A stretch of DNA of 64,000 bases, taken from NCBI GenBank assembly GCA_021399435.1, contig JAJTUP010000020.1:744001-808000 (forward strand), written 5' to 3'. How positions within the stretch are numbered: the first letter of the stretch is position 1; every line of letters starts with the position of its first letter. The notes beneath the pieces were generated by a model. The model was not told the DNA's origin. It worked only from the letters and a program-made list of their open reading frames with translations, and ran no database searches. The stretch comes from Diaporthe sp. PMI_573. Taxonomy: Eukaryota; Ascomycota; Sordariomycetes; Diaporthales; Diaporthaceae. This document shows, in pieces, positions 12,939 through 60,185 of the stretch. Both the position numbers and the translations under genes were made by a program.

Positions 12939-14311
12939 TTAGAACGGCAGAGGGAACTCAACGTTCTGAGCCATGTACGAAGTCATGTATACACCTCTGT
13001 CTTTCGTGAAGCAATAAGTGCACCAGGTATGGACCATACTTGGGCCGGGGACGCCGCCGGCGCCGCTGAGTGGAGTCAGTCTTTCATGTCAACGCCACTG
13101 AATGGGGCCATTTGAACTTACAAGGTCTTGTTGAAGAATTGTGGGTAATCTTCACCAATTCTTTCGTCCCAAGCCCATTTACCCATCACATCTCTGTCTC
13201 GAAGTCTCGTGAATATTCGGTCCAAGTTCTTCGCAACGGCTTCATCGCTTTTGTGGTACAGCCACATTGGCACATAGACTTTGACATCCGGTAACTCTAC
13301 GCCCGCCCTGATTTCATAAGACACAAACACACCCGGGAGAGCATTGTCTAATTTGTTCCGGGGCTTGTTCCAGTCCGCGCTGATGCCTTCGGGCTCATCA
13401 AGAAGAAGGTGCCAGATATCCCCTAGTATCTCCATGCCCTTCGTAGTATGCTCGTCGTTAAGCCGACCACTCAACGTCATGGCGGTGCGTATAAAGTCAA
13501 ACCGGGCAGTATCAGTCGCCATGTACAGCTTGACCCGGGCTTTTCCGGGGTCCGCGCAATCGATGCCGATGAATTGGTTGCCGAGATAGAAATCCCCAGT
13601 GCGGGTGGCCAAGTAGTCCTCTAACAATTTCACAGCTGGACGCAGATCCGGCCCGCCCGGCTGCAGGTTCTTGATCGCGTCAAAGACAATTTCATTCTCC
13701 GACCTGCCCGTCATGATATGCTTGATAAAAGGGCTCAGGTAAACCTTGAGATTCCTCCGGGGCCCATCAAAATCGACACCCGCGGCTAACGCGACCCGCC
13801 TGCTGTAGTTCTTGTACAACAAGGAGTCTGCCGCCACACTGATTGCGTCGGGGCTCGGGTACAAGGCCATGAGGCAATCGAGCCAGCGCAAGTCCACGCC
13901 CGAGTCCTTATCCTCGGCGAAGCGAGCGAGAGCCTCATATGAAGTCTTTACCCCGAGAGGGTCCTCAGCCGTGAATGACTGTGGGCCGTTGACTGCAAAC
14001 CCGAAGCGAGTCAGGACTTTCTTGGCTGTGAAGTTGATGCTCGGGTCACTCGGTCCGCCGTGTGGAGCAATGGCCATTCGAGGTTTCCTGACGGATGGCC
14101 GGGGGCGGGGACCTATGGCAGGGATGATGTACCTTCGAATAAAGTCCCGATGGGATGCGCGCTCTGCCTCCGAATAGTGCCCGGCGTCCAGCAGTGGATC
14201 GATGTAGCGCTTGCAATAGTCGTCCCAAAACGCGAGGTCTTTCGCTGCTGGTTGTTCATAATCAGGAAATATTATGGACGAGCCTATGCCATTGCTTTCG
14301 TTGAGTACCAT
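12939..14311 (-). CDS. Aromatic prenyltransferase, DMATS type
   Basis: Two exons, 14311-13122 and 13065-12939, with intron 13066-13121 (GTAAGT...CTCAG), give 438 aa, the usual size for the dimethylallyltryptophan synthase superfamily. Features are DLAFWDDYCKRYIDPLLDAG at the N terminus, the central Lys/Arg/Tyr-rich diphosphate-binding strands (RVALAAGVDFDG, VKLYMATDTARFDFIR), and a C-terminal strand recovered only by splicing (HTWCTYCFTKDRGVYMTSY), which matches the family's terminal beta-strand. The enzyme would transfer a prenyl group from dimethylallyl diphosphate, or a longer donor, to an aromatic ring or Tyr oxygen; it is soluble with an ABBA barrel. Its place beside a PKS-NRPS recalls cyclopiazonic acid pathways, where a DMATS acts on an amino-acid-derived ring. 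The acceptor here is unknown. The unspliced frame would lose the last 42 residues. Confidence 0.93.
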
Positions 14312-54044: not shown

Positions 54045-57000
54045 ATGGAGGGACCTGCGGCTCAAAGTCCGCGACGAGACCGCCGGAGGCCTTCCTTCCA
54101 CTCACCAAACAGCTCTCGCACCGTCTCGCGCTCAAGTAATCGCACCTCGTCTGCGCGGATGCCTCCCCAAACCATGAACGATTCCTCGTCAAACATCGCC
54201 CCGTCGCCTAGTCAGAGATACGCACAGCCTGTCGGTTCTCGTTTCCCCCAGCGTAGAGGCTCCATGGGCTCCAACGCGGATCGGCCCCCTACCCCGGTGT
54301 CCAAGAGCTCTGTCAGGGGCTCACAGTCCAGCACTCATCAGGAGCCTGCCTCCACCCTGCTGCAGGAGAAACTGCAGCGGGAACGGAGGTCAGAAATTCA
54401 GCGGAACCTCAACAGGCTGGCCGATGAGATGAGCATAGCAGACAATACGCAGCCGGCAGCGTCAACCCCGGTGCGGTGCGCCACAGCCGATGGCAAACGC
54501 CCGGGATCTAGCGACGCGAATGGCGACGCTGGGAAGAAGAAGGGCTTGGCCCTCAAAGAAATGGAACAGGTACTAATGGCTCCCTTGACTTGCAGCGTCA
54601 TCAACAGTGCTCTGCCCTCTACTGCTCATGAGTACAGGCCCTTGATCATCCATGTCTTCCCTACCATCATTTCTCTTGTCTTCCCGGCCAGCGCTTCACT
54701 GTGGCCCCCATTGCAGACGCCATGAATCAGAGAATGTTGTCGGAGTTGCTGACAAGACCCTGCACAGGCAATGTCGACTCTCCACAAGCAAAACTTTGAC
54801 CTCAAGCTCGAGCTCTTTCATCGTCGGCAACGGCAGTCCGTCCTGGAGGACAAGGTCGAGACGTTGGAAGCAGAGAAGTCACAGACCCAGGAGACCAACG
54901 ACACACTGATACATGAGCTTGAAAGGCGGGACAAGGCGGTCGAAGAGGCCGTCACAATGATTGTGACCCTGGAAGCTCGCATAGAACTCCTCTTACGCGA
55001 AAGGGAGATGGTTCGCCAGGTCGAGGCCGACAGAGCCCTCATCTCCAAGCTGGCGGCGTCACAGTCCGTCTCTGGAACCATCCAACCTGACACAACGAAC
55101 GCGCAAGATACTGTGTCAAATGATTTTGGAAGGAGCCTCGCACGGATGCCCAGTTTCCTTTCAGAGCGCACCGAGAACACTGAGAACCTCCGGCATGTTT
55201 ATCTGGGAGCGCAGGGAAGCATTCTCAGCTTGTCAAAGACAGATCCGAGGGCGGATAATGGTGGATTCGTCAGCCCAAATATGAGCATCTTGAGTGAGAG
55301 CTCGTTCATCAGTATTTACGGAAGGCAGACTACTCTACAAGACCACTCATCTCCCCAAGCTGGAAACGAGTCACGGCTTGACGATAACGCCGTTAAAGGT
55401 GGCGGCCGCAGTCTGTCTATGTCGATGCACGACGCCACCCCCACCAGGTCAAGCGCAAAGGAGGCGATTGAGAACGGAGAGACCACCTCGCCCCTGCGGA
55501 AGCTCGAGAAGCTCGACTCGTCGCCTGCTATACGCGAAACCTCGGAGGCAACGCCCCTGGGAAGGGATATTGAGCGGCCAGCTACCTCCATCAAGCTCTC
55601 CAAACCACAGCCACTCCTTCGAGTCAGGAAAGCCAGGGAGAGGCCAGGATCGACTCGCAGAGTCATTACGGACATACCTTCCTCTCGCGCGCACGCGTTG
55701 CCTCCAACTCCCGACACTATGTCAAGCTCGATGAACCAGAGTCTTTGCTCTGACGACACCACGCAACAGGGCCGAGGTGACGGGGAAGCAACGTATCCTG
55801 TGATGTCACGACCAACCTTGGATCAGACTGATGAGATCGAGCCGGGCCACTGGCGGTTCAAGGGTACCGGTGTTGCTCATCCACCATCAGTCACAGCATT
55901 TACAGGCAGGAAAGACCACTCGGCCGTGAACCATACCGACATGTCGTTGGCCCTACCGAGACGCCCCCGATCCGCTGACGAAACCACAATATCTCGTAAT
56001 AAGCTTGACTGGGATTCAGGAAGTGAGTTTGATGATGCAGCTTCGGAGGTGTCCAGTTTCGATCACTGGATTCGAGAAGGTCTTCGACCCAGTCGCGGTG
56101 GCCAGGCTCAGGCGCAAAACGGAGCGGCAGTATCCCAAAGACACACCAGCCGAGGCACCCCCGATCTATTCGGGTTCCCGTCTGATGCTAGAGGCTGGCA
56201 GTCAAATGACATGTTCGGGGCTCTGGGTGGAAACGGCTATTACGGCGCAGCGGCTCCTAATGCGACAGTGTTAGATGCTCTTGGAGATTCGTTGCCAACA
56301 CCTGAGGCCGGCATCTACGGCTCAGGGCTTGCAGGAGCCAGTTCCCCTCGACCAACTGGTAACGCGGTTGCCCCACCACCGGCACCTCATCGCAAGTCTA
56401 GTCTACGAGCCCGGACATCTGCACCTGGAACTCCAATGACCACACGTCCGCCAAGGTCCTTTGGGAGACATGGCGAATCTGAGTCGAGCAGAAAGAGTTC
56501 TTTAACCGGACAGACACAGACGAATTCGGATCGATGGCCGGCACCCAACTCCCGCAGCATAACGCCGACTCAGCCGGATCGTCCTCAGGCTCAGTCTCAT
56601 GAGGAGGCCTCGGCCCCCAAGCGCCACTACCCGCCGACCGCCAGTCACCAGCAGCAAGCGCCTGCGCGTCCTCGAAGTAGAGGAATCACTAGCCTTTTCC
56701 GACGTTCTCTGGGCTCAAGTCATCCAATCCAGCCATCCACCTCGGTCCCGAACAATCAGTCGCCATTTTCCCCACCCGCAAGTGCCGACCCCCCGCCGGC
56801 ACCTGTCGGCGTTCCGACCTGGGAGCGGAGGAACGAACGGGGCGACGAAGAGATGTCAGCCACTCCGCCGCCGATCATGCGCAAAAGGGCGCCCACACAC
56901 GATATGGGCTTCGGAGACCATACAGAGGCGCAAGATACCACGGGACCAGCAAAGGCAGGGAAGCCTCACCCTCTCCGCTCCCCGAGTCCAGGCTTGGGCG

Positions 57001-57203
57001 CTGGCTTGAGCAACGTCTTGGCCTCGCATGAGGGTGGGGCTCCTCTCACGTCCCACGGTGGACACGATCAGGAAAGCGCTCCGAACTCGGCGTCTACCTC
57101 TGGCCATGGCAGTGGACATGGACATGGACATGGACATGGCCACGGCCACGGGAGGAAGTGGTTTGGTTTGCGGGCCACGAGCTCTAAGCACAGTGGGACT
57201 TAG
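54045..57203 (+). CDS. Centrosomin N-terminal motif (Cnn_1N) protein, MTOC-associated
   Basis: Two exons, 54045-54569 and 54768-57203, with a 198-nt intron (GTACTA, GCTGAC branch, CACAG) that joins the motif in phase; 986 aa. Residues 1-160 are Ser/Arg/Pro-rich and disordered. The splice creates LALKEMEQ plus AMSTLHKQNFDLKLELFHRR, the centrosomin motif 1 that recruits gamma-tubulin complexes. A coiled coil follows to about residue 290 (VETLEAEKSQTQETN, EARIELLLREREMVRQ). The rest is low-complexity Ser/Pro-rich sequence with basic patches (RPRSRGITSLFRRSLGS). The protein ends in six His-Gly pairs before RKWFGLRATSS. The likely site is the spindle pole body or septal microtubule-organising centres. 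It is shorter than Mto1/ApsB-type proteins, so it may be a different Cnn_1N family member. Confidence 0.86.
57114..57149 (+). repeat. Hexanucleotide repeat coding Gly-His pairs
   Basis: Four GGACAT units followed by two GGCCAC units inside the Cnn_1N gene; encodes a run of Gly-His near the C terminus. Confidence 0.85.
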
Positions 57204-58049: not shown

Positions 58050-59347
58050 TTAAGCGGAGAACCTCAAGGCTCGCTTGGCCGGCGCTCCCTCGGCGACAGG
58101 TACCTCCGGGACAGGAGTTTCGGTCGGCTGCAGCGCGGCCTCGATCGCGGCGACGGCGGCCCCGGATGCGGTGTCGGTGACGAAGTCCTGGGCTATCTCC
58201 TTGCCGGTGTCCTTGGCGCCCTGGACGAATCCTCCTGAGCTTGAGCCTTGGTCCTTGCTGCTGGAGTCGTCTTTGGGAGTGTTGTCGCTGCTGGCTGGGG
58301 GTGGGGGTGGGCTGCCGCTGGAGGAGGACGACGAAGAGCTGTCGCTACCGCCGCTGGAAGAAGAGGAGGAGGAGGAGCTGCCACCGCCGCGGGAAGAACC
58401 CCTCGACCCGCCCCTGCCCTTCCTCTGGCGCTTCTGGACGGCCCCATCCCGCGCCTGGAGGACGGTATTATCCGCCGTGGGCACCTCATCACCCGTGAAG
58501 ATGGGAATGCCCACGTTGGGGTCTAGGCCTCCACACAGGGGCGGGATTCCCGCGCAGGGCTCCTTCTTCTTGTACCCACCCTCCTGCTCGTTGATCTTGC
58601 GGGCACGCTCCAGCCATTGCTCAAAGCTGTCGTCGTCCTTGTCCTTCGGGGTGCGCTTCTCGTTGTTGTTGCTGTCGACGGCCTCCTCGGCGCCCCACGA
58701 GAACAGGTCGCTGAGAAAACTGCCCCCGCCCCTGCCGGCGGCCCCTCCGACGCCGCCGAACCTGGGGTCGCGCTTCTGGACTGGCTGTGCTTCCCCAGAG
58801 GTGGCCTCGTCAACACCATACCAGATGCCGGTGGAGATACCATCGGCAACAACGTCGCCGACGATATCCTTTCCGATTTCCTTTCCGGCGCCTCTGAACT
58901 TGCCGCCCTTGGGGCTACGCTTGACACGTGCATTCTCGTTGGTAGCCTCGTCCACGCCATACCAGATGCCCGTGGAGATACCATCAGAAACAACATCGCC
59001 GACGATATCCTTGCCAGCTCCTCGGAACCTGCCACCCTTGGGGCTGCGCTTCTCAACGGGTGCCTCCTCGGAGAGGGCCTCGTCGACACCATACCATATC
59101 CCGTCCGAGATGACACTGGAGGCGGTCTTGGTGGCGATGTCCTGGGCTAGAGAGCTTCCTCCATCCTGCTGCCCCTCGGAAGGCTTGCTAGACGAGCCAC
59201 CCTTGCCACCCTTGCCGCCTTTTTGTGGTGACCTCTTGGCTGGTTGTTCCTCGGCAGTAGCTTGATCGACTCCGTACCATATCCCGTCGGAGATCAGATT
59301 TGAAGCAGTTCCGGTGACGATGTCTTGGCCTAGCGAGCTGCCTCCGC

Positions 59348-59385
<38 letters not shown>

Positions 59386-60185
59386 CCAGACGAGCGTCCC
59401 TTGCCGGATGAACCACCCTTGCCGCCCTTTTGTGGTGATCGCTTGACTGGCTGCTCCTCAGCGGTGGCCTGATCGACTCCATACCAGATCCCGTCAGAGA
59501 TCAGATTTGAAGCGGTTCCGGAGACGATGTCCTGGCCTAGAGAGCTGCCTCCGCCCTGCTGCTGCTGCTGCTGCTGCTGCTGCTTGCCAGATGATCCACC
59601 CTTGCCACCTTTCTGTGGTGCTCGCTTGTCGACCTTTGGCTCTTCTTTCTTGTCTTCGATGGGTTCATCTTCCATGTTTTCGTCGCCTTCCTCGTCCTCG
59701 CAGTCCTCGTCACCTGACTTCGCTTCGTCATCATCGTCACCGAGTAACTTGGAGAGTCTCGACGGCTCGTCCTTCTCCTTGTCGTCCTCGGACTTCTTGC
59801 GGGTACAACTCTTGGTAGGTTCTTCCGCTGCGGCATCGCTCTCCTCCAGCTTGTCGTCCAGCATGGTCTTGAGCCCCGCCATAGCGTTCTTGCCCGCCTT
59901 CGCCCCCTTGGCCTTGGCCATCTCGTTGGACTTTCCCTTTGGCGCGGACTTCTTGGGGTCTCTGGCGAAGATGATTGCCCCGGGCACGCTTTTGAACGTT
60001 GGGTCGAAGACCTCGTCTAGTCGTGCGGGCTTGACCCCCCCTTCTTGTTGTTCGAGATTCTTGACGATGCCTTGGTCTCCAGACATCGAGATGATGTCTG
60101 AGTTTGGTTTGTCTGCAACAATTGGGGCACAATGGGCCATGGTGAAAGCAACCAGAAAGGCGCCGAAGGTGGACTGGGGATGCAT
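58050..60185 (-). CDS. Secreted Kex2-processed repeat precursor (KEP-type)
   Basis: Single frame of 711 aa from ATG 60185; the frame is open further upstream, but this ATG gives a signal peptide (MHPQSTFGAFLVAFTMAHCA). Residues 21-188 are a Lys- and acid-rich pro-region. Then come units ending in Lys-Arg: 189-249, 250-318, 319-380, 381-423, 424-472 and a degenerate 473-511. Units 1-5 start APQ/SPQ/SPK-GG and each carry GIWYGVD (at 232, 301, 362, 406, 453), preceded by a D-I-V/A...S/ADGIS helix-like stretch and followed by E/QAxxE. Later KR sites at 585-586 and 704-705 leave a final ALRFSA. Residues 544-552 hold CAGIPPLCG. KR after each unit is the Kex2 cleavage signal, so secretion would yield several near-identical peptides. 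Repellent, pheromone, effector or RiPP-type roles are possible; no DUF3328 oxidase gene lies in this window. Confidence 0.9.
59349..59384 (-). repeat. CTG/CAG trinucleotide tract, 12 Gln
   Basis: Pure glutamine run in precursor unit 2 (residues 268-279), coded by CAG on the minus strand. Confidence 0.9.
59556..59582 (-). repeat. CTG/CAG trinucleotide tract, 9 Gln
   Basis: Glutamine run in precursor unit 1 (residues 202-210). Confidence 0.9.

Follow-up and report, generated by a model that had tools for sequence, protein, structure and literature searches.

Kex2-processed repeat proteins (KEPs) are a known class of fungal precursors, for which 838 types have been published according to the main text of Umemura 2020 (PMC7329392). 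The same text delimits the class by at least three repeats of 8 to 100 aa between dibasic sites and reports a DUF3328 gene among the 15 nearest genes for 22% of KEP genes, at a mean of 3.09 genes away. The main text of Le Marquer 2019 (PMC6339444) requires the repeats to account for 15% or more of the protein, and describes X-Ala or X-Pro dipeptides after the Kex2 site as the Ste13 signature of alpha-pheromones, in ascomycetes generally dedicated to alpha-type pheromones. That text gives the signature as absent from Rep1, the cyclic-peptide toxin precursors and the epichloecyclin precursors, and proposes KEPs that carry it as good hormone candidates.

The window analysed in the present study is a stretch of 64,000 nucleotides from Diaporthe sp. 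PMI_573 (contig JAJTUP010000020.1, positions 744,001 to 808,000). A first-pass annotation, made from the sequence alone, had described a secreted, Kex2-processed repeat precursor near its right end. By the published repeat criteria the description of a KEP holds, with five units of 61, 69, 62, 43 and 49 aa between dibasic sites (measured without the repeat-scoring program of Umemura 2020), which at the smallest unit size of 43 aa amount to about 30% of the 711 aa.

The precursor gene and its surroundings

The precursor is encoded by one open frame of 711 codons in a single exon (58050–60185, stop codon included), as had been proposed; its strand, left unstated at the time, is minus, and all parts of the gene are given on that strand. 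The frame is real: four of its eight homologues (P0002–P0005) align with it over its whole length, C-terminal hexapeptide included, and its repeats are under selection. Residues 1 to about 20 (60126–60185) form a predicted signal peptide, with a boundary placed by eye; the S-T-F-G-A-F-L-V-A-F block within it corresponds to the hydrophobic N-terminus common to P0001–P0005, and AlphaFold models a helix at residues 4–18. An acidic pro-region of 168 residues follows (residues 21–188, 59622–60125) and has KR at its end.

Next come six units whose outer bases are those of the interval 58653–59621 singled out by the first-pass annotation. All five of the KR-ended units said to contain an exact GIWYGVD were located, namely unit 1 (residues 189–249, 61 aa, 59439–59621, core motif at 59472–59492), unit 2 (residues 250–318, 69 aa, 59232–59438, motif at 59265–59285), unit 3 (residues 319–380, 62 aa, 59046–59231, motif at 59082–59102), unit 4 (residues 381–423, 43 aa, 58917–59045, motif at 58950–58970) and unit 5 (residues 424–472, 49 aa, 58770–58916, motif at 58809–58829). 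Unit 6 (residues 473–511, 39 aa, 58653–58769) has a decayed core, in line with the earlier description, and retains a DPRF start and a KR end, as does the corresponding unit of P0004, in which the core is recognisable. CAG-type runs encode 12 Gln in the linker of unit 2 (59349–59384) and 9 Gln in that of unit 1 (59556–59582), and the length of these runs likely varies among strains.

Downstream of the repeats lies a spacer of 75 aa with KR at its end (residues 512–586, 58428–58652), which contains a two-cysteine segment also found in P0002–P0005. The C-terminal unit (residues 587–705, 119 aa, 58071–58427) combines a Ser-rich linker with a divergent core that lacks Trp-Tyr (residues 659–685, 58131–58211), and the residues after its KR are Gln-Arg, not X-Pro. 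A hexapeptide, ALRFSA (58053–58070), follows the last KR and is the same or similar in P0002–P0005. The C-terminal unit, ALRFSA, the acidic pro-region and X-Pro after seven of the nine KR sites all extend the original description. KR dipeptides number nine in the precursor versus 2.4 expected from its composition, and none of 5000 shuffles reached nine.

The left neighbour of the gene encodes a centrosomin-motif protein (54771–57203) and the right neighbours a DUF6536 protein and an NPHP3_N/NACHT-like protein. The right flank was covered as open reading frames to contig position 836000, and Pfam scans of five of these returned the DUF6536 and NPHP3_N/NACHT-like proteins, a sub-threshold ankyrin match and two frames without a family. 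A DUF3328 (UstYa) gene had been suggested as something to look for just beyond the window. UstYa (PF11807) has at least 81 matches in the genome, and the only two on the precursor's contig, among the matches listed, are at 279–281 kb, approximately 521 kb from the precursor at 802–804 kb (the contig ends at 1070 kb). Tyrosinase has at least 57 matches in the genome, none of them on this contig among the matches listed. Given the 22% of KEP genes with a DUF3328 neighbour in the main text of Umemura 2020, a precursor without one is the common case. Exon matches to UstYa are often tightly grouped, for example on contigs C142, C215 and C112, which suggests UstYa-type RiPP clusters elsewhere in the genome.

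Elsewhere in the window, Pfam matches at 13118–35095 outline a biosynthetic cluster with a PKS-NRPS hybrid (KS-AT-DH-MT-KR-ACP-C-A-PCP), a tryptophan dimethylallyltransferase, an MFS transporter, a 2OG-Fe(II) oxygenase and a partial P450, a combination of genes reminiscent of cyclopiazonic-acid-type clusters.

Homologues and processing sites

Seven homologues were obtained from a search of a public protein collection and one more from a search with a relative as query. Since these searches scored approximately 8000 candidates with the most shared words, the family may be larger. A search with a profile of the cores returned seven of the eight known homologues and no new one, missing P0007 though its cores are in the profile. 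By their source names, P0004 is from Diaporthe australafricana, P0007 from Staphylotrichum longicolle and P0008 from Parachaetomium inaequale, and the family spans a Diaporthe and two Sordariales. P0001–P0005 share 48–56% identity with the window protein in alignments, as fits a Diaporthe-like source for the window. The last 90 to 105 or so residues of P0006–P0008 comprise an extra KR-bounded peptide, which starts with X-Pro and carries an Arg-Ile/Leu-Ile-Pro stretch, and then a hydrophobic C-terminal segment, both of which are missing from the window protein. The nine proteins are related, so that counts made across them are not independent. A core and the KR sites are retained in the homologues; their loss, which the first-pass annotation had named as telling against its reading, did not occur.

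Scans against Pfam and NCBIfam returned no family for the window precursor, in agreement with the earlier remark that no known family was recognised by its core, and a Pfam scan of four relatives gave a single sub-threshold match. A genome search for paralogues with the whole precursor retrieved, among the matches listed, the precursor itself only. P0006 as query gave a weak match elsewhere in the genome (E 0.05), which we attribute to chance as its reading frames contain no KR-bounded core. A degenerate DNA pattern for GIWYGVD matched five sites in the 83.7-Mb genome, all inside the precursor gene, compared with no control matches. The family is not named in the main-text passages covered from Le Marquer 2019 (PMC6339444) and Umemura 2020 (PMC7329392), and among titles and abstract openings of the literature on KEPs or on the sequence motif we recognised no description of it. 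Judged by this coverage it is a new family of the known class, and it may stand among the 838 types in the supplements. One candidate home is type G-7, which according to the main text of Umemura 2020 (PMC7329392) takes in Valsa, Cytospora and Chaetomium and has 49 of its 50 members without DUF3328.

Downstream of each of the 48 recognised cores of the nine proteins there is a KR or RR ahead of any further core, and 47 have such a site upstream too, the exception being the first unit of P0004. For this per-core scoring the upstream site was the first KR or RR after the previous core. By that rule the window's C-terminal core was credited with the X-Pro belonging to the decayed unit though its own KR precedes Gln-Arg, and X-Pro was therefore counted over all KR sites. 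It follows 47 of 76 KR in the nine proteins compared with 32 of 489 other Lys or Arg residues, while the second Ste13 dipeptide, X-Ala, shows no enrichment (4 of 76 versus 35 of 489). In the window precursor X-Pro occurs at seven of nine sites (AP, SP four times, DP and TP). Across the family X varies between S, A, D, E, N, G and T, the dipeptide is doubled at some sites (DPDP, EPDP, DPEP, NPSP and SPSP), and one site of P0007 reads AAAAEAEADP; a variable first residue and a variable number of dipeptides after KR are also features of alpha-pheromones. A (K/R)GG box is found near the start of 38 of 47 units.

The genome has exons of a Kex2-type P-domain (PF01483) and DPPIV/Ste13-type peptidase exons (PF00930). 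It is very probable that a secreted precursor would yield linear peptides via Kex2, Kex1 and a Ste13-type peptidase, and the X-Pro trimming signature fits predicted products that are linear. The genome also contains a separate alpha-pheromone precursor with five WCFWKGQGCW copies, three of which follow KREA or KRDA by eye. Its gene (L010:730-1881, contig C1) is approximately 4 kb from a DPPIV/Ste13-type peptidase gene (C1:1816358-1817476), and the precursor and this candidate trimming enzyme may be linked.

Conservation, charge and periodicity of the core

The five GIWYGVD copies show 37 synonymous differences over 43.3 sites and no nonsynonymous differences over 166.7 sites, summed over the ten pairs, and the corresponding proportions for the whole 27-residue core are 0.59 and 0.23. 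From these substitution counts, GIWYGVD is under constraint within the five units. The first-pass annotation had called the Trp-Tyr pair conserved. This is upheld within the gene, where the pair is invariant in five units, and in part among the nearer relatives, where the window protein and P0001–P0005 together have it in 20 of 30 recognised cores; it fails for P0006, P0007 and P0008, where all 17 recognised cores lack it. The cores of P0004 include IYTG and VSAG alongside three WYG, and two of the three finder-detected cores of P0005 have ILYG. In the other three proteins the equivalent residues are IMFG, IMIG and ILFG (P0006), IVAG (P0007), and FGVG and AGVG (P0008). Two core subtypes can be distinguished by eye within one precursor, separating window units 1–3 from 4–5, and likewise in P0006.

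Of the cores, 42 were detected by the core finder, which passed over all those of P0008, the C-terminal one of P0005 and several others that are decayed or C-terminal. Five cores of P0008 and one of P0005 were added by hand. Processing-site counts are based on 48 cores, including the added P0005 core, and the position, moment and permutation tests on 47, without it, or 41 once copies that are identical within one protein are counted a single time. Ser occupies position 14 in 36 of the 41 cores. Gly occupies positions 16 and 20 (GxxxG) in 37 and 39 of 41, respectively, counts that are partly built in because the alignment anchor favours both residues. Positions 18 and 19 are variable, with Trp at the former in 20 of 41 and Tyr at the latter in 21 of 41.

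Net charge was scored in 44 units of 35–81 residues, dropping first fragments (one P0004 unit) and fragments >90 aa. Every one of the 44 is positive ahead of the core (+1 to +4) and negative over the core and its C-terminus (-2 to -9), with whole-unit charges of -6 to +1 (median -1). The five mature window units have net charges of -1 to -4.

The hydrophobic moment peaks at 88–91 degrees in each of the 41 cores, equivalent to a four-residue period, part of which is built in by anchoring the alignment on a GhxxGh pattern. Column permutation reached the family moment peak in 61 of 20000 trials on the Eisenberg scale and 43 of 20000 on the Kyte-Doolittle scale; on an interface scale that rewards Trp and Tyr the period was not significant (5115 of 20000). 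The columns upstream of the anchor alone peak at 87 degrees (107 of 10000 permutations), and core columns 16–25 alone show no period (6579 of 10000). A plain amphipathic helix is not supported, as the moment is low at 100 degrees (0.060, permutation p 0.85) and peaks at 89–90 degrees. The column pattern resembles the LIxxGVxxGVxxT spacing of glycophorin, but the cores are too acidic for us to regard them as transmembrane.

AlphaFold modelling of the full precursor with nine sequences gave no ordered core (mean pLDDT 41.6), the helices modelled being just the one at the N-terminus and a short one at 521–530. Unit 5 alone gave a low-confidence helix at its residues 10–28 (mean pLDDT 68.5) that stops just before GIWYG. 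As predictions, these models neither prove nor exclude ordering of the core on assembly.

Candidate functions and comparison with known systems

The architecture, conservation, charge blocks and period described above are well established at the level of sequence, and on these grounds we tentatively prefer a reading in which linear, Ste13-trimmed, self-associating KEP peptides exert a physical effect at an interface, be it the hyphal surface or some other. The pro-protein would be secreted and cut by Kex2 after KR, the KR would be taken off by Kex1, and a Ste13-type dipeptidyl aminopeptidase would remove the X-Pro start, or X-Pro-X-Pro in some relatives. The predicted products are five related linear peptides of approximately 39–65 residues and the C-terminal unit. 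In all five mature peptides the (K/R)GG box and a variable linker behind it would make up a positive, Gly-rich tail, and the 27-residue core would be anionic and carry the four-residue hydrophobic period and GxxxG. Contacts of tail with core and of core with core may let the peptides self-associate, and their role at the surface would be physical, neither that of an exact-sequence hormone nor that of a cross-linked RiPP.

Across the family the charge blocks, period and GxxxG persist although individual core residues change and the linkers vary freely, as would be expected if selection acted on a physical property, for instance self-association, and not on an exact fit to a receptor. We put self-assembly first because this pattern is kept over the identity of residues and because the anionic charge is unlike that of a classical lytic peptide. 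Trp-Tyr, largely kept in the cores of the window protein and P0001–P0005, counts against self-assembly, as an exact-sequence role predicts such retention. Trimming by itself does not point to a surface role, the precursor of the surface-active Rep1 being without the Ste13 signature in the main text of Le Marquer 2019. A more specific and, to us, doubtful proposal is that of an undescribed secreted peptide family matured by the Kex2/Kex1/Ste13 route of mating pheromones and non-mating itself, in which one precursor supplies two complementary, block-charged types of GxxxG core that together build a surface layer or membrane complex, and in which charge blocks and the four-residue period, not sequence, are under selection. 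Among the main alternatives we rank self-assembly at the hyphal surface or a similar interface highest, ahead of a non-mating hormone, with a membrane-active pair third and a cross-linked RiPP last.

That the peptides are linear, Ste13-trimmed hormones, sensed by the fungus's own receptor in the manner of an alpha-pheromone and unconnected with mating, appears unlikely. X-Pro after KR is the mark proposed for hormone-like KEPs in the main text of Le Marquer 2019 (PMC6339444), and both the invariance of GIWYGVD in five units and the retention of Trp-Tyr in 20 of 30 cores are what such a role would favour. The core residues nevertheless drift between and within precursors (IYTG, ILYG, IMFG and IVAG), and units of 35–81 residues are set against the short, near-identical repeats of pheromones.

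The first-pass annotation had also raised membrane activity, and the GxxxG cores could instead insert into the membranes of competitors or host cells and form oligomers there, in the manner of two-peptide bacteriocins or candidalysin. The presence of Gly at both positions of GxxxG in most cores and the coexistence of two core subtypes in one precursor (window and P0006, by eye) are in keeping with this, as is an excerpt of PMC6382864 in which GxxxG motifs are described as important in two-peptide bacteriocins. We judge it rather unlikely in view of the anionic window units, which differ from classical lytic peptides, the several acidic residues within the cores, and models that contain no membrane helix predicted with confidence.

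Kex2 often removes pro-domains only, and the repeats might act as one cell-wall or effector protein in which KR is cut partly or never. Long low-complexity linkers and the 168-residue acidic pro-region would suit a single repetitive protein, but KR and X-Pro are retained where units meet, unlike the linkers, whose length and composition vary, and this reading is quite improbable.

A UstYa-type RiPP with Trp-Tyr oxidatively cross-linked by tailoring enzymes encoded elsewhere, the ustiloxin-like option raised by the first-pass annotation, is the least probable of all and is not supported, since the many UstYa and tyrosinase exon matches in the genome and the invariant pair in five units (20 of 30 cores with P0001–P0005) are outweighed by the distance of some 521 kb to the nearest UstYa on a contig lacking tyrosinase among the matches listed, by the 17 cores of P0006–P0008 without Trp-Tyr, and by the reported absence of the Ste13 signature from cyclic-toxin precursors in the main text of Le Marquer 2019. 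Conservation of Trp-Tyr within one gene need not imply oxidative cross-linking.

Among the systems compared, the sea-cucumber NGIWYamide precursor shares GIWYG, also in five copies (in the part of PMC3432112 that describes the precursor), a likeness we reject as coincidence given that NGIWYG is bounded by KR there and GIWYG runs on to Val-Asp here. The ustiloxin/phomopsin-type (dikaritin) precursors resemble the present one in their Kex2 repeats and aromatic core residues. They differ in that it has no UstYa or tyrosinase neighbour among the matches listed, carries the Ste13 signature and has an aromatic pair that is not family-wide; a conserved core aromatic, expected of dikaritins, is not seen with Tyr 19 in 21 and Trp 18 in 20 of 41 cores. 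Class IIb two-peptide bacteriocins offer an analogy only, through GxxxG motifs and two related core subtypes; they are bacterial, with a different leader and export. GxxxG motifs matter for such two-peptide bacteriocins according to an excerpt of PMC6382864. In Candida albicans, Ece1 resembles the present protein as one precursor giving KR-bounded peptides of approximately 30 or more residues, among them candidalysin, which is amphipathic and lytic, unlike our five anionic mature units. Candidalysin is cationic. Rep1 of Ustilago maydis likewise gives several related Kex2-cut peptides, and surface assembly is what we propose here; its peptides are similar in size to the precursor's units, and amyloid-like surface fibrils would be expected of a Rep1-like repellent. 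Rep1 differs in being without the Ste13 signature (main text of Le Marquer 2019, PMC6339444).

The likeness to alpha-type pheromone precursors lies in KR followed by X-Pro and in peptides that are presumably linear; the present units are several times longer and divergent. The alpha-type pheromone motif is that of a short peptide of the W-C...G-Q-x-C-W type, and an identity with alpha-pheromones was rejected as the five genome-wide matches to this motif are all in one other gene, on contig C1. The family carries the Ste13 signature yet is not an alpha-pheromone, the canonical one being elsewhere in the genome. With KEPs, of which a signal peptide and the lack of a membrane anchor are also expected, it shares repeats between dibasic sites, its own N-terminus being signal-peptide-like, and it would provide an accessible system, with a testable biophysical design, for asking what non-mating KEP peptides do.
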